A DNA stretch of 64,000 bases from Anaeromyxobacter sp. Fw109-5 (lineage in GTDB: Bacteria; Myxococcota; Myxococcia; Myxococcales; Anaeromyxobacteraceae). Location of the stretch: positions 4,778,501-4,842,500 of the forward strand of contig NC_009675.1 of NCBI RefSeq assembly GCF_000017505.1, read 5' to 3'. Numbering within the stretch: position 1 is the first letter of the stretch; every line of letters begins with the position of its first letter. Both the position numbers and the translations under genes were made by a program. The notes under the pieces were generated by a model. The model had not been told where the DNA came from. It saw only the letters and a list, made by a program, of their open reading frames with translations, and made no database searches. Below, piece by piece: positions 12,050 through 27,178 of this stretch.

Positions 12050-15187
<3,138 letters not shown>

Positions 15188-15198
15188 CGTGCGGCCTC

Positions 15199-16776
15199 TC
15201 AGTGCACGTGCCCGTGCTGCGGGATGGCGCCGGAGGACGCGGCCAGCCGGACCTGGTAGGCGCCGCGCGAGACGACGCGCTCGCCGGGCTGCACGCCGGC
15301 GAGCACCTGCACGCGCTCGCCGTCCCGCAGCCCGAGGCGGACCGGGCGGCGCTCGAACCGCTCGCCCGAGACCTCCACGAAGACGACCTGCTCGCTGCCG
15401 TCGTCCACGACGGCGCTCGCGGGGACGGCGACCGCCTTCACGGGGGGACCGGTGAGGACGTGGACGCGCGCGAACATCCCGACGCGCAGGTCGCGTCCCG
15501 CGTTCGGCAGCTCGAGCACGAGCGGCGCCGTCCTGGTCTGCGGGTCGATCACGCCGCCGAAGCCGATCACGCGCCCGCCGCGCTCCGGCGCCACCTCGAA
15601 CGGCGCCGCGAACCCCTCGACCTCGAACCACGCGCCGGTCGGCTTCCCGATCCTCCCCACGTCGGCCTCGGGGATCTGCACCTCCAGCCAGAGACGATCG
15701 AGATCCACGACGTGGATGACCTCGCGGCCCTCCTCGACGAGCGTGCCGGGCGAGGCGCCGATCAGGGCGACCGTCCCCGCGATCGTGGAGCGGAGCATGA
15801 TCCGGCCCGCGCCGCCGCCGGCGGAGCCCTCGAAGCGCGCCTTGCGCGCCTGCCCTGCCGCGAGCCGGGCCTCGCCCTCCGCGACGGCGCGCCGCGCGTC
15901 CTGGACGCGCCGCTCGGGCACCGCCTCGGCGGAGGCGAGCTCCTCGAGCCGCGCCAGGTCCTTCCGGGCGAGCTCGAGGTCGAGCCGCGCCTGCGTGACC
16001 GCCAGCTCGAGCGAGGCGGGATCGGCGTCCCCGCCGACCCTGGGAGCGAGCGCGGCCAGCACCTCTCCCGCGCGCACCTGGCGCCCCACGAACGGGAAGC
16101 CCCCGCCCGCGGCGACGAGCCGCCCGGCGACGGGCGCGGCGATCCGAGACTCGCCGTCCGGGCGCGCGCGGAGCGTGCCGTTGGCGAGGACGGACGGACG
16201 CAGCTCCGCCTCGGCCGCGGGCGCCGTGGCGAACTCCGTGCGCCACTGCTGCTCCTTCAGGTACGGGACGAGGCCGGGGGCCTCCTCCTCCTCTCCGGCC
16301 CCGGCCGCCTCGGCGACGGTGACGAACACCTGGACCTCGCCGAGGTCGTGCCGGTCGGTGACCCCCGCGCCCTCGACCGTGAGGGCGAGGCGCCTCTTCG
16401 CGGCGTGGGCGGGCTTCACCACGGGCCGGAAGATCCCCGCCGGGCTGGGATCCGTCGCCGCGAAGCGCTCGTCGGGCGCGCCGCCGCCGGAGAGGACCAC
16501 CTCGACGCGTCCCTTCTCGAGCGGCCTGAAGCGCTCGAGATCGTTCAGGTGCGCCGCGAAGCGCGACTCCTCGCCGCGCACCAGCACGGGGAACTCGACG
16601 AACAGCTCCGTGCGCTCGCCGAAGTGCGTGATCGACCTGCCGGGCCGCTCCGCCGGCGCGTGGTCCCCGTGGCCGGCGGCTCGGGGGGCGTGATCGTGGT
16701 CGTCGCCGCCGCCCGGGCGCTCGCGGCAGGAGGCGAGGGCGCCGAGCAGGGCGAGCGCGAGCAGGGTGCGCGTCAT
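15199..16776 (-). CDS. RND efflux periplasmic adaptor (CzcB/CusB family), lipoprotein
   Basis: Encodes 525 aa. The N-terminus is a lipoprotein signal with lipobox LASC (Cys17), then a histidine-rich stretch DDHDHAPRAAGHGDHA that could bind metal. It continues with beta-sandwich sequence, a lipoyl-like half (RIAAPVAGRLVAAGGGFPFVGRQVRAGEVL), a long alpha hairpin (residues about 265-335, rich in Ala/Arg/Glu), the second lipoyl half (LRSTIAGTVALIGASPGTLVEEG) and the membrane-proximal domain ending HGHVH. It is anchored in the inner membrane and bridges pump and outer-membrane channel. It starts inside the end of the TolC-type gene (four-base overlap), indicating coupled translation. Confidence 0.95.
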   Translation of the reverse strand: MTRTLLALALLGALASCRERPGGGDDHDHAPRAAGHGDHAPAERPGRSITHFGERTELFVEFPVLVRGEESRFAAHLNDLERFRPLEKGRVEVVLSGGGAPDERFAATDPSPAGIFRPVVKPAHAAKRRLALTVEGAGVTDRHDLGEVQVFVTVAEAAGAGEEEEAPGLVPYLKEQQWRTEFATAPAAEAELRPSVLANGTLRARPDGESRIAAPVAGRLVAAGGGFPFVGRQVRAGEVLAALAPRVGGDADPASLELAVTQARLDLELARKDLARLEELASAEAVPERRVQDARRAVAEGEARLAAGQARKARFEGSAGGGAGRIMLRSTIAGTVALIGASPGTLVEEGREVIHVVDLDRLWLEVQIPEADVGRIGKPTGAWFEVEGFAAPFEVAPERGGRVIGFGGVIDPQTRTAPLVLELPNAGRDLRVGMFARVHVLTGPPVKAVAVPASAVVDDGSEQVVFVEVSGERFERRPVRLGLRDGERVQVLAGVQPGERVVSRGAYQVRLAASSGAIPQHGHVH

Positions 16777-18017
16777 CGGGGAGCTCCTCCGGAGGTGCGG
16801 TCGAGATCGATGCGGGCGCGGCGAGCGGCCCACTCCAGCTCCACGAGCGAGAGGTCGGCGTCGAGCGCGGCGCGGTAGCCGTCGATGAGCTCGAGCACGC
16901 CGACCTCCCCGCCGCGATACGCGGCCTCGGCGATGCGCAGCAGCGCCGCGGAATCGGCGGCGCCGCTCTCGCGGTAGCGGCCGGCCGCCCCGGCGAGCCG
17001 GGTCGCCTCGGCGTGGAGCCCGGCGACGTCCGCGCGGGCGGCGTCGAGGGCGAGGGAGAGCCGCCCGCGCGCCGCGCGGGCACGGGCGTCGCCGCGCAGC
17101 CGCTCGTCCTGCCCCCGCGCGAACAGCGGGATGGGAACGGTGATCGCGGCGGCGAACCCCGAGTCGCGCCCGGCGCCGGCCTCGACGGTCTTCACCCCGC
17201 CGCCGAGCTCCACCTCCGGGATGAGCCATCGCCCCGCGGCGCGGGCCTCGAGCTCGCCCGCTCGCGCCTCGAGCGCGAGGGCCCTCAGATCCGGGCGCGA
17301 GGGGAGCCGCTCGGCGAGCGTCGCGAGCGGGGGCGGCGAGGTCGGCGCGAGGTCGCCGGTCAAGGCGAGCGCCGACGGATCGGTCGCCCCGATCAGCGCC
17401 GCGAGCCGGGCGCGGGCGCGGGCGAGCGCGCCCTCCTCGACGTCGAGCCGCCCGAGCGCGGTCAGCCGCTCGCGCTCGACGCGGCGGCGGTCGTAGCCGG
17501 CCACGTCGCCGCTCGCCGCCCTGCGCCCCACGGCGGCCGCGACCCCCTCGAGCCGCTCCACGGCCGCCCTCAGGATGCCCACCCGTCGCTCGGACGCGAG
17601 CGCGTGCGCGAACGCCCGCCGCGCCTCGGCCTCCACGTCGAGCCGGAGGAGCGCCGCCTCGGCGCCCGCGGCCTCCACGCGGCGCGCCGCCGCGTCGCCG
17701 CGGAGCCCGCGGCGGCCGGAGAGGTCGAAGCGCTGAGACAGCACCGCCACGTCCTCCCGCGCGGCCGGGCCGTCGGGGCGAACCTCCTCGTGGGACCACG
17801 TCGCTTCTGGGTTCGGCCAGCGGCGCGCGGCGATCTCGTCGGCGCGGGCCAGGTCGACGCGGGCGCCGAGCTCCTCCACGAGAGCCGGGCGCGAGAGGGC
17901 GCGGCGCACGGCGTCCTGCTCGTCCAGCGGGGACGGAGCCCCGTCGGCGGCCGCCCGGGAGGCGAGCGCGATCACGGCGACGAGGAAGAACCGAGCGACG
18001 GTCGGCTTTTCGGGCAC
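16773..18017 (-). CDS. TolC-family outer membrane efflux protein (CzcC/CusC type)
   Basis: Encodes 414 aa: a signal peptide (VARFFLVAVIALASRAAADG), then two internally similar halves rich in long amphipathic helices, as in outer-membrane efflux proteins. Markers are RRWPNPEATWSHEEV after the first helix, VPIPLFARGQDERLRGDARARAA in the second half, and YRGGEVGVLELIDGYRAALDA near the end, all typical of CzcC-like proteins. It forms the outer-membrane exit duct. It starts 35 bases after the M56 gene and overlaps the adaptor gene by four bases. Confidence 0.94.
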   Translation of the reverse strand: MPEKPTVARFFLVAVIALASRAAADGAPSPLDEQDAVRRALSRPALVEELGARVDLARADEIAARRWPNPEATWSHEEVRPDGPAAREDVAVLSQRFDLSGRRGLRGDAAARRVEAAGAEAALLRLDVEAEARRAFAHALASERRVGILRAAVERLEGVAAAVGRRAASGDVAGYDRRRVERERLTALGRLDVEEGALARARARLAALIGATDPSALALTGDLAPTSPPPLATLAERLPSRPDLRALALEARAGELEARAAGRWLIPEVELGGGVKTVEAGAGRDSGFAAAITVPIPLFARGQDERLRGDARARAARGRLSLALDAARADVAGLHAEATRLAGAAGRYRESGAADSAALLRIAEAAYRGGEVGVLELIDGYRAALDADLSLVELEWAARRARIDLDRTSGGAPR

Positions 18018-18052: not shown

Positions 18053-19027
18053 TCAGTGGGGAAGATGGTCGAGGAGCGTCTCCGTCCAGTGATGGACGTG
18101 AGGCGCGGCGCCGGCGAGCGCGGCGGCCGCGGCGAGCAGGATCCACGGTAGGTAACGCGGCGCCGCGCCGTCCACGGGCGCCCCGAGCAACGACTCCACC
18201 CGGCTCCCCACCTCGGCGCCGCCGAAGGCGAGCCCCGGCGCGGCGAGCGGGTGGGAGGACCCGGCCGCGCGCTCCGCCGCCAGGATCGTCTCTGCCACGA
18301 GGACGCGATCCCCGCACGCGCGTGCGGCGGCCTCGTCGCACGCCTGCTCGCAGGCGAGGGCGAGGTCGAAGAGGACCTGGCGGCGCACGGACGGAAGGTG
18401 CGCGAGCGAGAGGACCCGGGCGATCGTGACCGCCAGCGCGTCGCGCCGCTCGGCGTGCGCCCGCTCATGGGCGACCACGATCTCGACCTGCGCCGGGCTC
18501 AGCCGCTCGAGGAGGGCCGTCGACACGAGGACGCGCGGGCGGAACCAGCCCGCGGTGAGCGCGAAGGCGCGCCGGGACTCGACGACGCCGGCGCCAGAAG
18601 GGAGCTCGAGCGAGGCCGCGCCGGCGAGGCGGGCGGCGAGCGCGGCCGTGCGGAGCGCGCGCACGAGCGCCGCGCCCGCGACCGCGGCGAAGCCGCCGAG
18701 GCCCAAGGCCCCGGCGAGCCAGGGCCCGCGCGCCGGCAGGTGGTGGAGGCAGAGGTGGACGTGCCCGGCGTGCGCAGGGCAGTGATCGACGGCCAGCCCG
18801 AGCACCGCGCCGAGCGACGGCCACAGCGCGAGCGCGAGGAGCGCCGTCGCCGCGGTCGCGGGGGCGGCGGCCCACGCGAGGAGCACGCGCGACCGGAAGG
18901 GGGGCGGGAGCGCACGGGTCCGGGTGGCGACGATGCGCTGCGCGAGCGCGGCCGCGGCCGCGACGAGGACGCCGAACCCGAGGAGCGCGACGCCGTTCAG
19001 GGCCGCGAGCCGCAGCAGGCCCGTCAT
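18053..19027 (-). CDS. M56 (BlaR1-type) membrane metalloprotease with His/Cys-rich extracytoplasmic loop
   Basis: Encodes 324 aa. Topology fits the membrane half of BlaR1/MecR1: TM1 about 5-30, TM2 about 48-80, TM3 about 103-123, a cytosolic zinc-protease domain with H187-E-R-A-H191, and TM4 near 300-312. It lacks the C-terminal penicillin-binding sensor of BlaR1 (about 600 aa). Instead, the loop between TM2 and TM3, extracytoplasmic in BlaR1, is packed with ligands: H82, C83, H86, H89, H91, C93, H95, H96; the C-terminus (HVHHW...DHLPH) adds more. Together with the BlaI gene it overlaps by four bases, and the metal efflux genes downstream, this suggests a metal-sensing protease that inactivates BlaI. 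The sensing role is inference. Confidence 0.92.
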   Translation of the reverse strand: MTGLLRLAALNGVALLGFGVLVAAAAALAQRIVATRTRALPPPFRSRVLLAWAAAPATAATALLALALWPSLGAVLGLAVDHCPAHAGHVHLCLHHLPARGPWLAGALGLGGFAAVAGAALVRALRTAALAARLAGAASLELPSGAGVVESRRAFALTAGWFRPRVLVSTALLERLSPAQVEIVVAHERAHAERRDALAVTIARVLSLAHLPSVRRQVLFDLALACEQACDEAAARACGDRVLVAETILAAERAAGSSHPLAAPGLAFGGAEVGSRVESLLGAPVDGAAPRYLPWILLAAAAALAGAAPHVHHWTETLLDHLPH

Positions 19028-19416
19028 CGCCGAGCCTTCTTCCTGTCGGCGATGAGCCGCTCGAGCCGATCGAGGTTCGCCGCGTCCGTCCGCTCGGCGA
19101 GGTCGACGAACGCCTCGAGCACCGGCACCGCCTCGCCCTGCAGGAGCCGGGAGACGACCTCCTCCACCACGCGCGCGCCCAGCTCCTCGCGGCTGTGGCA
19201 CGGCGAGTAGACGTAGGCGTGGCTCACCTTCTCGCGCGCGAGCAGCCCCTTGCGGAACAGCCGCTCCATGGTGGACTGGACGGTGTTGAGCGTGATCCCG
19301 CGGCGGGACCCGAGCGTCCGGTGGACGGCCTTCACGTCGCACGACCCGGCCGCCCAGACGTGCTCCAGGACGGCGGTCTCGAGCTCACCGAGCCTTGGGA
19401 GGGGAGGCCTCGTCAT
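19024..19416 (-). CDS. BlaI/MecI/CopY family repressor
   Basis: Encodes 130 aa: a winged-helix DNA-binding domain (LPRLGELETAVLEHVWAAG, then TVQSTMERLFRKGLL as recognition helix and wing) followed by a C-terminal helical dimerisation domain with the protease-target-like VVEEVVSRLLQG region. BlaI proteins repress until cleaved by an M56 protease; CopY relatives respond directly to copper through C-terminal cysteines, which this protein lacks. It starts 57 bases after the sigma-factor gene and overlaps the M56 gene (ATGA). The start is the ATG giving MTRPPLPRLGELE. No clear BlaI-type palindrome is visible in the short gap upstream. Confidence 0.94.
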   Translation of the reverse strand: MTRPPLPRLGELETAVLEHVWAAGSCDVKAVHRTLGSRRGITLNTVQSTMERLFRKGLLAREKVSHAYVYSPCHSREELGARVVEEVVSRLLQGEAVPVLEAFVDLAERTDAANLDRLERLIADRKKARR

Positions 19417-19473
19417 GCGTGCCGCCGATCTGTCCCACGGCCGAATACCGGTCGTCAATCGGTGTTTCCCGCC

Positions 19474-20088
19474 TCAGGCCCGCGGCGCGAGCGCGACGCG
19501 GGGCCGCGCGCCGTGGCAGCCGCAGTCGAGGCAGCCGTGCTCGGCGCAGGCACCGCAGGAGCGCACGAGCTGACGCCGCAGCGCCCGGCGGGCGCGGTGC
19601 AGCCGGACGCCGGCGTTGTTGGGCGTGATCCCGGACGCACGGGCGACGTCGGCGACCGAGCGCCCGTCCAGGTCGACCGCCCGGAGGATCTCGCCGTACT
19701 CGGGCCTGAGCGTCGAGACGAGCTCACCCACGCAGGCGCAGATCGCGTCCTCGAGCTCGACGTCGAGCGCGTCGCCCGACTCGCGCCCGTGCCGCTCGAG
19801 GGCCCGTCGCTCGGCGCCGCGCCGCCGCACCTCGTCGATCCAGGCGTTGCGCAGCACCCCATGGAACCAGGCCACGATCCCCTCGTCCTCGTCGTCCGGG
19901 ACGCCCTTCTCGATCGCGCGGGCGTAGGCGGCCTGCAGGACGTCCTCCGCCTGCTCGCGATCGCCGGCGCGGCGCGCGAGCGAGGCGAGGAAGCGGGGGC
20001 GGTGGGCGAGGAGGACGCGCTCGGCGCGCTCCGCCAGGGCGCGGTCCTCCACCTCGTCGAGCCGGGGCTCGGTCTCCTTCGGCTGCAC
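19474..20088 (-). CDS. CorE-like ECF sigma factor with Cys-rich C-terminal domain
   Basis: Encodes 204 aa from a GTG at 20088 set by a perfect AGGAGG six bases upstream. Sigma2 spans about 20-92 (QAEDVLQAAYARAI; VAWFHGVLRNAWIDEVRRR) and sigma4 about 122-175. Two features match Myxococcus CorE: a C-x-C pair in the linker (C117, C119) and a cysteine-rich tail (C178, C181, C186, C189, C191 with H184 and H192). In CorE these make the sigma factor itself the copper sensor, with no anti-sigma factor. The copper ATPase gene is divergent, and BlaI, M56 and efflux genes follow on the same strand. Copper response is inferred from the family and context; the related CorE2 responds to cadmium and zinc. 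Confidence 0.92.
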   Translation of the reverse strand: MQPKETEPRLDEVEDRALAERAERVLLAHRPRFLASLARRAGDREQAEDVLQAAYARAIEKGVPDDEDEGIVAWFHGVLRNAWIDEVRRRGAERRALERHGRESGDALDVELEDAICACVGELVSTLRPEYGEILRAVDLDGRSVADVARASGITPNNAGVRLHRARRALRRQLVRSCGACAEHGCLDCGCHGARPRVALAPRA

Positions 20089-20238: not shown

Positions 20239-22596
<2,358 letters not shown>

Positions 22597-23532: not shown

Positions 23533-23638
23533 GCTCGCGTTGAGACCGAGTATCGTCCGGTTCGAAGTTGAGAACGACTCGCAAGTTCGCCGCTCGTAGA
23601 AGTTTGCCGCCCCCACCAGTCCCGCAGGAGCAGTGCAC

Positions 23639-24490
23639 ATGAGCAATCGCCTTCGCGCCCTGGCGTTCGCCGCCGTAGTCCTCCTCTCCCCCGCCGCGCG
23701 CGCCTCCGAGCTGGACGACGGCCCGATCGTCCCTCCCGCAGGCCCCGACCACGGCAAGATGGCCACCGAGGAGGCGACGCCCGTCGGCGCCGGCGCGGTC
23801 GAGGTCGAGACCGCCTACAGCCCGAAGTTCGCCAACCGGGGATCCGGCGGCTTCGACCGCTCCGCCGACGGCCACACCCACGCGTCCTCGCTGGCCTTCT
23901 TCTACGGCGTGAACGAGCACCTCGACGTGAAGGTGGGCAGCGGGTTCGCGAACACCGTCGACCGCTCCGACCCGACCGGCCCCGCGCGCGGCGCCGGCGC
24001 CACCGACCTCGTGCTCGGGACGCGCTGGCGCTTCCTCGCCGACGTCGAGCGCGCCCTCGACCTGACCCTCGCGACCACCGTCGTCGCCCCCACGGGGCTC
24101 GAGGAGGCGGAGGACGCCCTCGGCCTGACGCAGGGCTACTGGAGCCTGCGCAACGCCCTCGTCGCCTCCAAGGACTGGGGCCGCAAGACCGCCAACGCGG
24201 AGCTCGCCGTCACGGTGCCCATGGGCGGAGGCGCCGGCGACCTCGTGGGCGGCGCCAGCGCGAACGTCGCGTTCGGCTACGCCGTCGTCCCCTGGTTCCA
24301 GCCCATCGCCGAGGTGAACTACGAGGCGGCGCGCGACGTCACCACCCAGCAGCGGCTCGCGCTCACCGCGGGCCTGAACATGACCGCGCGGAGCGGCACC
24401 CGGCTGCTGGTCGGGGTCCAGCAGGCGGTCTGGGGACGCGACGTCGGGCAGGACACCACCGCGCTCGCCGCGTTCAAGGTCGCCTTCTAG
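23639..24490 (+). CDS. Outer-membrane beta-barrel protein of the feo operon
   Basis: Encodes 283 aa with a Sec signal peptide (LRALAFAAVVLLSPAARAS) and then alternating strands: AGAVEVETAYSPKF, LAFFYGVNEHLDVKVGSGF, LVLGTRWRFL, LDLTLATTVVAPTG, ANAELAVTVPM, ASANVAFGYAVVPWFQPIAEVNYE, RLLVGVQQAVWG, ending in a C-terminal aromatic residue (AFKVAF) as outer-membrane proteins do. This is the pattern of the small transporter-like barrel family. An AGGAG site sits nine bases before the ATG; a GTG two codons earlier is too close to that site. It starts the feo cluster, 17 bases before the first feoA, so a role in metal passage across the outer membrane is plausible but unproven. Confidence 0.85.
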   Translation: MSNRLRALAFAAVVLLSPAARASELDDGPIVPPAGPDHGKMATEEATPVGAGAVEVETAYSPKFANRGSGGFDRSADGHTHASSLAFFYGVNEHLDVKVGSGFANTVDRSDPTGPARGAGATDLVLGTRWRFLADVERALDLTLATTVVAPTGLEEAEDALGLTQGYWSLRNALVASKDWGRKTANAELAVTVPMGGGAGDLVGGASANVAFGYAVVPWFQPIAEVNYEAARDVTTQQRLALTAGLNMTARSGTRLLVGVQQAVWGRDVGQDTTALAAFKVAF

Positions 24491-24735: not shown

Positions 24736-24965
24736 GCACGAACCTGGCGAAGCTCGCCCCCGGCGAGACGGGGCGCATCACGGCGATCGGGGCCATCGGG
24801 CCCATGAAGCGGCGGCTCATGGACATGGGCCTGCTGCCCGGCGCGGAGGTGCGGGTGGAGAAGGTGGCGCCGCTCGGCGATCCCATCGAGGTGCGGATCC
24901 GCAGCTATCACCTCTCGCTTCGCAAGAACGAGGCGGAGGGGATCGCGGTGGAGGTGACGCCGTGA
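24732..24965 (+). CDS. feoA: FeoA domain protein (second copy)
   Basis: Encodes 77 aa and is the more canonical copy: LAPGETGRITAI, the MKRRLMDMGLLPGAEV core, and IEVRIRSYHLSLRKNEAEGIAVEV with the last two strands. It overlaps both neighbours by four bases (ATGA, GTGA), so feoA-feoA-feoB should be translated in a coupled way. FeoA is thought to bind FeoB and influence GTP-dependent Fe(II) uptake. Confidence 0.92.
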   Translation: MSTNLAKLAPGETGRITAIGAIGPMKRRLMDMGLLPGAEVRVEKVAPLGDPIEVRIRSYHLSLRKNEAEGIAVEVTP

Positions 24966-27178
24966 CCGCCGCGCCCAAGCTCACCGCGGCGCCCTCGGCG
25001 CCCCCCGACGCGGCGCGGCCCCTCACCGTGGCGGTGGCGGGCAACCCGAACTCCGGCAAGTCCACGCTCATCAACGCCATCGCCGGCAGCCGCCTGCACG
25101 TCGGCAACTGGCCGGGGGTGACCGTCGAGAAGAAGGAGGCCTCGCTGGAGCACGGCGGGCGCCGCATCCGGCTCGTCGACCTGCCCGGCACCTACTCCCT
25201 CTCCCCCTACTCGCAGGAGGAGATCGTCGCGCGCGACTACCTCGCGCACGAGCGCCCCGACGTGATCGTCAACGTGGTGGACGCCACCAACCTGGAGCGG
25301 AACCTGTACCTCACGGTGCAGCTCCTGGAGCTCGGCATCCCGGTGGTGATGGCGCTCAACATCTACGACGAGGCGGAGGCGAAGGGCTACCGCATCGACG
25401 TGCGCGGGCTGGAGGCGCGCCTCGGCCTGCGCGTCGTCCCGACCTCGGCGACGAAGAAGACGGGGCTCGCGGAGCTGCTCGGGACGGTGGTGTCCACCGC
25501 GGATCGCCGCCAGGTGCGCACCCTCGTCCCCCTCTCGTACGGCCCCGACCTCGACGGCGCCGCCGCCGCGGTCGCCCGCGCGCTCGCGGAGCGCCACCCG
25601 GCGCTCGCGGAGCGCTTCCCGGCGCGCTGGCTCGCGCTGAAGCTCATCGAGGGCGACGCGCGGGTGCTGGAGGAGACGGGCCTCGACCGGCCCGCGCTCG
25701 TGACGGCGCCGCTCGAGCACCTCGTCACCGCGCACGGCGACGACGTCGAGGCGATCCTCGCCGAGGCGCGCTACGGGCTCGCCGCCGGGCTCACCCGCGA
25801 GGTGCTGGAGAAGCCGCGGCTGCAGCGCACCGAGCTCACCGAGCGGATCGACAGGATCGTCCTGAACCGCTTCCTCGGCATCCCCATCTTCCTCGCCGCG
25901 ATGTGGCTCGTCTTCAAGCTCACCTTCGATCTCTCCGCGCCCTTCGGCGACTGGATCGACGCGATGGCGAACGGCCCGTTCAAGCGCTGGGCGGCCGCGC
26001 TCCTCGGCACGGTGGGCGCGCCCGACTGGACGGTGTCGCTCGTCAACGACGGCATCATCGCCGGGGTCGGCTTCGTCCTCGTCTTCGTCCCCGTCATCTT
26101 CGCGATGATGTTCTTCATCACCTTCCTGGAGGGGTCGGGCTACATGGCCCGCGCCGCCTTCGTGATGGACAAGGCGATGCACGCCATGGGGCTGCACGGC
26201 AAGTCGTTCATCCCCATGGTGCTCGGCTTCGGCTGCAACGTCCCGGGCGTCTACGCCACCCGCACCCTGGAGAGCGGGCGCGACCGGATCCTCACGGCGC
26301 TCCTCATCCCGCTCATGTCCTGCGGCGCGCGCCTCCCGGTGTACGTGCTCTTCGTCGGCGTGTTCTTCCCGGATCGGCCGGGCACGGTGATCTGGTCGCT
26401 CTACGTCATCGGCATCGTGCTCGCCATCGCCATGGGCGTGGTCTTCAAGAGGACGCTGTTCCGCGGCGAGGCGCCCGCCTTCATCATGGAGCTGCCGCCC
26501 TACCGCATGCCGTCGATGCGCAGCGTGTGCCTGCACACCTGGGAGAAGGGGAAGCACTTCCTCTACAAGGCCGGCACCTACATCCTCGCGGTCTCGGTCA
26601 TCGTCTGGTTCATGCTGAACCTGCCCTGGGGCGTGGCGGACAAGAAGGACTCGTACCTCGGCAAGGCCGGCCAGGTGATGGCGCCCGCGCTCGCGCCGCT
26701 CGGGTTCGGGACCTGGGAGGCGGCCTCCTCCCTCATCACCGGCGTCATCGCGAAGGAGATCGTCGTGGGGACCATGGCCGAGATCTACGCGCCGGAGCCC
26801 GCCGCCGCGGAGGAGGCGCAGCCCACGCTCGGCGAGGACGTGCGCGAGATCGGCGTCTCGTTCTTCGAGGCGGCGCGCCAGTCGCTCGGCAACGTGGTGT
26901 CGACGCTCGGCGTGACGGCGATCTCGATCGAGGACGCCGACGAGGCGCCCTCCCCGCTCAAGGCCGCGGTCCGCACCGGGTTCACGCCGCTCACCGCCCT
27001 CGGCTTCATGGTGTTCGTGCTGCTCTACATGCCGTGCGTGGTGGTCGCCATCGCCATGCGGCAGGAGTTCGGCGGCTGGAAGTGGTTCGGGGTGGCGTTC
27101 GCCTACCAGACCGCGCTCGCCTGGGGCATGGCGCTGCTCATCTACCAGGGCGGCCGGCTGCTCGGCCTGGGGGCCTGA
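24962..27178 (+). CDS. feoB: Ferrous iron transporter FeoB
   Basis: Encodes 738 aa starting at a GTG overlapping the feoA stop. The N-terminal G domain has G1 AGNPNSGKST (26-35), the switch segment GNWPGVTVEKKEA, G3 DLPGTYSL and NVVDATNLERN, followed by the helical GDI-like region. The membrane domain contains two Gate regions: GSGYMARAAFVMDKAMHAMGLHGKSFIP and later YMPCVVVAIAMRQE, with GFGCNVPGVYATR carrying the conserved cysteine. It imports Fe(II) across the inner membrane and would matter most without oxygen, consistent with the upstream FNR-like promoter. Confidence 0.97.
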   Translation: MTAAPKLTAAPSAPPDAARPLTVAVAGNPNSGKSTLINAIAGSRLHVGNWPGVTVEKKEASLEHGGRRIRLVDLPGTYSLSPYSQEEIVARDYLAHERPDVIVNVVDATNLERNLYLTVQLLELGIPVVMALNIYDEAEAKGYRIDVRGLEARLGLRVVPTSATKKTGLAELLGTVVSTADRRQVRTLVPLSYGPDLDGAAAAVARALAERHPALAERFPARWLALKLIEGDARVLEETGLDRPALVTAPLEHLVTAHGDDVEAILAEARYGLAAGLTREVLEKPRLQRTELTERIDRIVLNRFLGIPIFLAAMWLVFKLTFDLSAPFGDWIDAMANGPFKRWAAALLGTVGAPDWTVSLVNDGIIAGVGFVLVFVPVIFAMMFFITFLEGSGYMARAAFVMDKAMHAMGLHGKSFIPMVLGFGCNVPGVYATRTLESGRDRILTALLIPLMSCGARLPVYVLFVGVFFPDRPGTVIWSLYVIGIVLAIAMGVVFKRTLFRGEAPAFIMELPPYRMPSMRSVCLHTWEKGKHFLYKAGTYILAVSVIVWFMLNLPWGVADKKDSYLGKAGQVMAPALAPLGFGTWEAASSLITGVIAKEIVVGTMAEIYAPEPAAAEEAQPTLGEDVREIGVSFFEAARQSLGNVVSTLGVTAISIEDADEAPSPLKAAVRTGFTPLTALGFMVFVLLYMPCVVVAIAMRQEFGGWKWFGVAFAYQTALAWGMALLIYQGGRLLGLGA

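Follow-up and report, generated by a model that had tools for sequence, protein, structure and literature searches.

A blaI-M56 pair at the head of a heavy-metal efflux operon

The window (the whole stretch of 64,000 nucleotides that was analysed, from Anaeromyxobacter sp. Fw109-5) carries on its minus strand, in this order, genes for an ECF sigma factor, a BlaI-type repressor, an M56 membrane protease, an outer-membrane efflux protein, a periplasmic adaptor and an RND pump (Table 1). Gene families were assigned from Pfam and NCBIfam profile matches judged against curated cut-offs. The blaI and M56 reading frames overlap by 4 bp (ATGA) and the efflux protein gene starts 35 bases after the M56 stop codon; the three genes that follow M56 match OEP, HlyD/CusB and ACR_tran in Pfam, in that order, and the last also exceeds the TIGR00914 cut-off. 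The overlap and the TolC/adaptor/RND pump proposed in an earlier note made from the sequence alone are thus both borne out. That note covered only positions 18053-19416, which leaves out the putative operator and the upstream sigma factor gene.

Table 1. Features of the efflux operon and its divergent neighbor (window coordinates).
Feature	Position	Strand	Support
ECF sigma factor gene, CorE-like	19474-20088	-	Sigma70 r2/r4 matches (Pfam)
Putative BlaI operator, AACACCGATTGACGACCGGTATT	19444-19466	-	Register matches perfect palindromes of related operons
blaI, BlaI/MecI-type repressor, 130 aa	19024-19416	-	Penicillinase_R 89.3 bits, cut-off 22.6 (PF03965)
M56 membrane zinc protease, 324 aa	18053-19027	-	Peptidase_M56 39.3 bits, cut-off 31 (PF05569)
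Proposed sensor loop DHCPAHAGHVHLCLHH, residues 81-96	18740-18787	-	Conserved in pump-adjacent homologues; predicted periplasmic
Catalytic HERAH, residues 187-191	18455-18469	-	M56 active site
M56 active-site residues E227, D231	18335-18349	-	Conservation
M56 active-site residue R276	18200-18202	-	Conservation
C-terminal HHWTE, residues 312-316, second proposed ligand set	18080-18094	-	Conservation; predicted periplasmic
Outer-membrane efflux protein, TolC/CzcC-like	16773-18017	-	OEP 87.8 bits (Pfam)
Periplasmic adaptor, CzcB/CusB-like, His-rich N-terminus	15199-16776	-	HlyD_D23; RND_mfp over cut-off
Heavy-metal efflux RND pump, TM4 signature AVGALVDDAIIDVEN	12050-15187	-	TIGR00914 808.9 bits, cut-off 701.45
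Copper-type P1B ATPase, divergent neighbor	20239-22596	+	TIGR01511 567.8 bits, cut-off 397; YHS, HMBD

In the divergent copper-type ATPase, N-terminal YHS and HMBD domains replace the classical HMA domain. Between these metal genes and feoB (24962-27178) lies a gene (23633-24490, plus strand) whose 285-aa product may carry a signal peptide; no Pfam or NCBIfam match was found for it.

A protease of the BlaR1 type with conserved putative ligands in place of a drug sensor

The M56 protein contains a gluzincin active site, HExxH...E, with the conserved Asp and Arg. In a residue count over 44 sequences, namely the window protein, the pump-adjacent M56 proteins described below and a copy from a Pseudomonas aeruginosa plasmid, H187, E188, H191, D231 and R276 were invariant (44/44, and likewise in alignment A2) and E227 was present in 43. 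The protein ends soon after TM4, 8 residues past the HHxxE motif, and both its length and the Pfam searches show that a penicillin-binding sensor domain is absent from the C-terminus, as the earlier note had maintained when it described an HExxH protease without a beta-lactam sensor. A possible autocleavage site, A267-F268, corresponding to S283|F284 of BlaR1, was also considered; we do not claim it because F268 occurs in only 17 of 50 relatives.

An AF2 model of the protein (mean pLDDT 91.7, pTM 0.89) has as its closest solved fold Staphylococcus aureus BlaR1 (8exs), with a VIA-align Z of 13.2 over 226 aligned residues; Foldseek by itself gave E 0.055 against the same structure. BlaR1 has an Nout/Cout topology, and its extracellular loop EL1 belongs to the signalling path (PMC9834060). 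Lys plus Arg residues average 4.08 in the linker between TM1 and TM2 and 3.46 in the segment after TM3, against 0.74 in the TM2-TM3 loop and 0.14 in the C-terminal tail. Given this positive-inside bias together with the BlaR1-like fold, the loop and tail are very likely periplasmic and the protease domain cytosolic, a prediction that agrees with the outward-facing loop assumed in the earlier note.

The segment DHCPAHAGHVHLCLHH sits between TM2 and TM3. All eight His and Cys residues that had been put forward there as ligands (H82, C83, H86, H89, H91, C93, H95 and H96) are present, but H95 is not conserved, while D81 and the tail residues H312-H313-x-x-E316, which had not been listed, are conserved to the same degree as the loop. 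Among Myxococcota homologues found in a search for relatives, D81, C83, H89, H91, C93 and H96 were invariant, even though their identity to the window protein is only 28-38%, except for a single close relative at 74%. Since the loop ligands other than H95 recur in diverged homologues beside pumps, the cluster is beyond what chance would produce. In the 44-sequence count C83, C93 and H96 were each found in 40 sequences and H91 in 42, and H312 and E316 were invariant in all 44, a set sampled with a profile that excluded the tail.

Ligands and pump linkage in relatives

A DNA pattern encoding only the motif D.C..H..H.HLC..H was scanned across 84,980 genomes and returned 76 stretches, 64 of which were M56 open reading frames. 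BlaI adjoins M56 in every one of these 64 loci, and most have OEP, adaptor and RND genes on the other side within the stretch examined. By record titles they come from Myxococcota, Acidobacteriota (Holophagaceae and others) and Proteobacteria (Massilia, Mariprofundus, Thiotrichales and others). Because this motif selects on the loop itself, we built a second profile, A3, from the protease region only, excluding both loop and tail, and searched it in 195 Myxococcota, 247 Acidobacteriota and 398 Proteobacteria genomes. Its matches, together with a PF05569 sample, gave 116 distinct M56 proteins, 44 with a downstream pump gene and 72 without. At least four His or Cys residues per 22 aa of loop were found in 42/44 pump-adjacent proteins versus 5/72 of the others (Fisher p 1.7e-23), and a C-terminal H[HRST]xxE in 43/44 versus 4/72 (p 6e-26). 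Since related sequences are not independent, these p-values are descriptive only. The alignment of M56 homologues adjacent to RND genes, which the earlier note had suggested as a check, therefore finds the ligands conserved beside RND pumps and mostly absent elsewhere.

The exceptions are of several kinds. The five proteins with a cluster and no detected pump are L163, which is cut by a contig end; L215 and L217, which have the full motif; L223, a BlaI-M56 pair with a different Cys/His loop (EHCHDGVCSSH); and L219. This last locus (L219/L233, 5317-6719, minus strand) holds a BlaI-M56 pair with loop EHCH...CGQH, tail HHWIE and a blaI operator of the same type; no pump lies nearby and the adjoining divergent gene reads like a TonB-dependent receptor, so that the pair possibly places another function under metal control. 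Conversely, L169 has no cluster yet is followed by an OEP match. Two pump-adjacent loop types are Cys-free His clusters, HHTEPHTLHLL in L194/L195 and HWHH...SWH in L220/L221. Finally, the BlaI-M56 pair of L190/L238 (1284-2653, plus strand) is nested within the family in a tree of the protease region (support 100/91), but has lost its ligands in both loop and tail; no pump lies beside it in the 5.6 kb of sequence available, and an unrelated large ORF follows it. Taking these variants together, M56 ligands and pump linkage tend to go together.

Myxococcota also contain numerous long BlaI-linked M56 proteins, of 500-930 aa (L110-L139), that have neither loop ligands nor pumps.

The same five genes, blaI, M56, tolC, adaptor and cusA/czcA, occur on a conjugative plasmid of P. 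aeruginosa (CP109756.1, 400204-407362; L243), where they are flanked by transfer genes (trb cluster). This copy has the loop CSAHADALLHLCVWH, the tail HSVTE and a perfect operator, AAACCGATTGACGGTCGGTTT. A search with P0001 gave no plasmid relatives at E 1e-5 and one P. aeruginosa plasmid at a looser limit, and no viral relatives were found in the search for them. A link between Cys-free His loops and pumps bearing the DFG-DGA-VEN signature was entertained and dropped because the P. aeruginosa plasmid joins a Cys loop to a DFG-DGA-VEN pump.

A putative operator and a cleavage position in BlaI

Upstream of blaI, the operator core ACCGATTGACGACCGGT at 19447-19463 is centered on a -35-like box, TTGAC, lies 30 nt ahead of the start codon, and has a single exact match in the 5.28-Mb genome (5,277,990 bases, one contig). 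It is an imperfect palindrome, with four of five half-site pairs, and the -10 box is weak. Related operons have perfect palindromes upstream of blaI, such as AAACCGATTGACnnTCGGTTT and TACTATTGACnnTAGTA, in one register and likewise centered on TTGAC; the palindrome is common to several phyla, with related forms in Acidobacteria. A perfect 5+5 palindrome was found in 25 of 63 blaI-upstream regions, compared with 0.04 expected from shuffling, and the same search gave 30 in a second sample and none at 49 control BlaI-M56 loci. A repressor would be expected to bind over the -35 box, and from its sequence we regard the element as a putative operator.

In BlaI, the bond that BlaR1 cleaves joins N101 to F102, and a Phe at P1' is nearly invariant (PMC9834060). 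In a profile alignment A102-F103 of the window BlaI falls on the NF of S. aureus MecI and BlaI, and Phe occupies the P1' position in 85% of 65 partner BlaI proteins.

A proposed protease-repressor relay with a metal input

The explanation we favor, with a probability of roughly 0.83, is that we have here a self-contained efflux system, inducible by metal, in which control lies with a protease-repressor relay of the BlaR1 type that responds to a periplasmic metal, as yet unresolved. When metal is low, BlaI would be bound to the palindrome over the -35 box and would repress blaI, M56, tolC, adaptor and RND genes. A transition metal reaching the periplasm would be captured by the TM2-TM3 loop through a core of C83, H91, C93 and H96, to which D81, H82, H86 and H89 would usually add, and the C-terminal H312, H313 and E316 would probably share in the binding. 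Binding would shift the transmembrane helices and activate the cytosolic zinc-protease domain, which would then cut BlaI before Phe103, leading to derepression and synthesis of the pump.

The relay is supported by gene order, ligand conservation, predicted topology and fold, the putative operator and the cleavage position, all of them read from sequence or models, with the caveat that the survey counts are not phylogenetically independent. Conserved residues of a metal-binding type stand in parts of the protein predicted to face outward, in place of a penicillin sensor, so it is very probable, in the absence of any experiment, that M56 turns on the pump in response to metal arriving at the cell envelope. 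The metal-triggered switch inferred in the earlier note withstood those refutation tests that could be computed; metal binding, the identity of the metal, the union of loop and tail in one site, binding-triggered cleavage of BlaI and induction of the operon all remain inferences.

Of the competing sources of the signal, the one that survives best is the sigma factor encoded directly upstream, in the same direction as the operon and divergent from the copper-type ATPase, which could be the main metal sensor of the operon in this genome and leave BlaI-M56 secondary or vestigial. Its product has CAC in the sigma2-sigma4 linker and a C-terminal C-x2-C-x4-C-x2-C-x-C, matching the Cys spacing and CXC described for CorE (PMC3107203). 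It is the only CorE-like sigma factor gene found in the genome. That none was seen in the other operons examined speaks against a main role, as do the completeness of the BlaI-M56 pair, with its own putative operator between the sigma factor and blaI genes, and the integrity of every catalytic and ligand residue of M56. The CorE paper lists a protein of Anaeromyxobacter Fw109-5 that is probably, we assume, the product of this sigma factor gene. We therefore doubt that the pair is subordinate; the sigma factor might provide added control of the operon in this genome and possibly controls the divergent P1B ATPase.

Somewhat harder to sustain is the view that M56 senses another envelope signal, be it redox state through the loop Cys residues or a mismetallated or misfolded protein, with the His residues tuning the response or holding a structural zinc and the pump serving as part of a general envelope-stress response. 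C83 and C93 do share the predicted periplasmic loop and might form a disulfide instead of binding metal. However, the pump-adjacent L194, L195, L220 and L221 proteins have lost both Cys residues and keep the His cluster and tail, the linkage is to heavy-metal RND operons, and the nested copy without a pump has lost the ligands; we consider such a signal unlikely. Least tenable of all is cytosolic sensing by BlaI itself, as in CopY, with the M56 loop merely scavenging metal or being structural: BlaI does score 45.9 bits against the CopY/TcrY model TIGR02698, and CopY is itself of the BlaI type, but this is far under the cut-off of 121.95, the CxCxxxxCxC motif is absent, and BlaI, unlike CopY, is unlikely to be a metal sensor judging from its sequence because no Cys/His column exceeds 45% among the 65 partner proteins.

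With regard to which metal would act through the proposed relay, the pump exceeds the cut-off of the CusA/CzcA family model but bears neither of two known signatures. At the positions of CusA M573, M623 and M672 the window RND protein has S, S and H in the alignment and so lacks the Met triad of CusA-type Cu/Ag pumps (HME4). The TM4 signature DFG-DGA-VEN marks HME1/HME2 (CzcA-type) pumps (PMC3637150); it is missing from the window protein, in which TM4 reads AVGALVDDAIIDVEN. Metal-related upstream neighbors among 65 ORFs comprised two DmeF-type Co/Ni transporters, in two Holophaga-group loci, one ZntA-like protein, in L101, and one copper-type ATPase, and they are not decisive; the neighbor in the window is a copper-type ATPase.

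Relation to known systems

In staphylococci a BlaR1-type membrane protease detects penicillin. The system described here resembles BlaR1-BlaI and MecR1-MecI of Staphylococcus and Bacillus licheniformis in its M56 gluzincin HExxH...E site, its BlaR1-like arrangement of transmembrane helices, the BlaI repressor encoded next to it, a putative operator that lies at the promoter, and Phe at the BlaI cleavage position. It differs in lacking the C-terminal penicillin-binding domain, in the Cys/His cluster of its TM2-TM3 loop, and in having a metal efflux operon as its target in Gram-negative hosts. As proposed, the system works like the BlaR1-BlaI relay, but without that domain its M56 protein does not count as a BlaR1 receptor. 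CopY is a copper repressor of the BlaI type, and like CopY and TcrY the window BlaI is a winged helix-turn-helix repressor of the BlaI type that would control genes for metal efflux; unlike them it is paired with a membrane protease and has no C-terminal CxCxxxxCxC. The two-component systems CusRS and CzcRS and the ECF/anti-sigma system CnrYXH also place tripartite HME-RND pumps under the control of a periplasmic metal signal. The proposed signal and the HME-RND target are shared with these systems, whereas here there is no kinase, response regulator or anti-sigma factor and the signal is proposed to pass by repressor proteolysis. As in CorE and CorE2 of Myxococcus xanthus, the adjacent sigma factor has a CXC and a Cys-rich C-terminus, but that type senses metal in the cytosol and stands apart from the BlaI-M56 pair.

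No paper describing a metal-responsive BlaI-M56 system was found in the open-access literature, to which our search was limited. We think it probable, with somewhat less confidence than we have in the relay itself, that these loci represent a class of periplasmic metal signalling as yet undescribed, found in Gram-negative bacteria of several phyla and on a conjugative plasmid, in which metal bound by loop and tail leads a minimal BlaR1-like protease to cleave BlaI and release efflux. BlaR1-BlaI is known for beta-lactams, and metal ligands replacing the drug sensor would show that the relay takes other inputs; if true, BlaR1-type signalling would be a general chassis that accepts different sensors. 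The operator and the cleavage site that follow from the proposal are open to direct testing, and a protein of about 324 aa would offer a small model for how an outer loop is coupled to a cytosolic protease without a large sensor domain. Many HME-RND operons in Myxococcota, Acidobacteriota and Proteobacteria would also gain a regulator, and metal efflux a mode of control other than two-component and anti-sigma systems.
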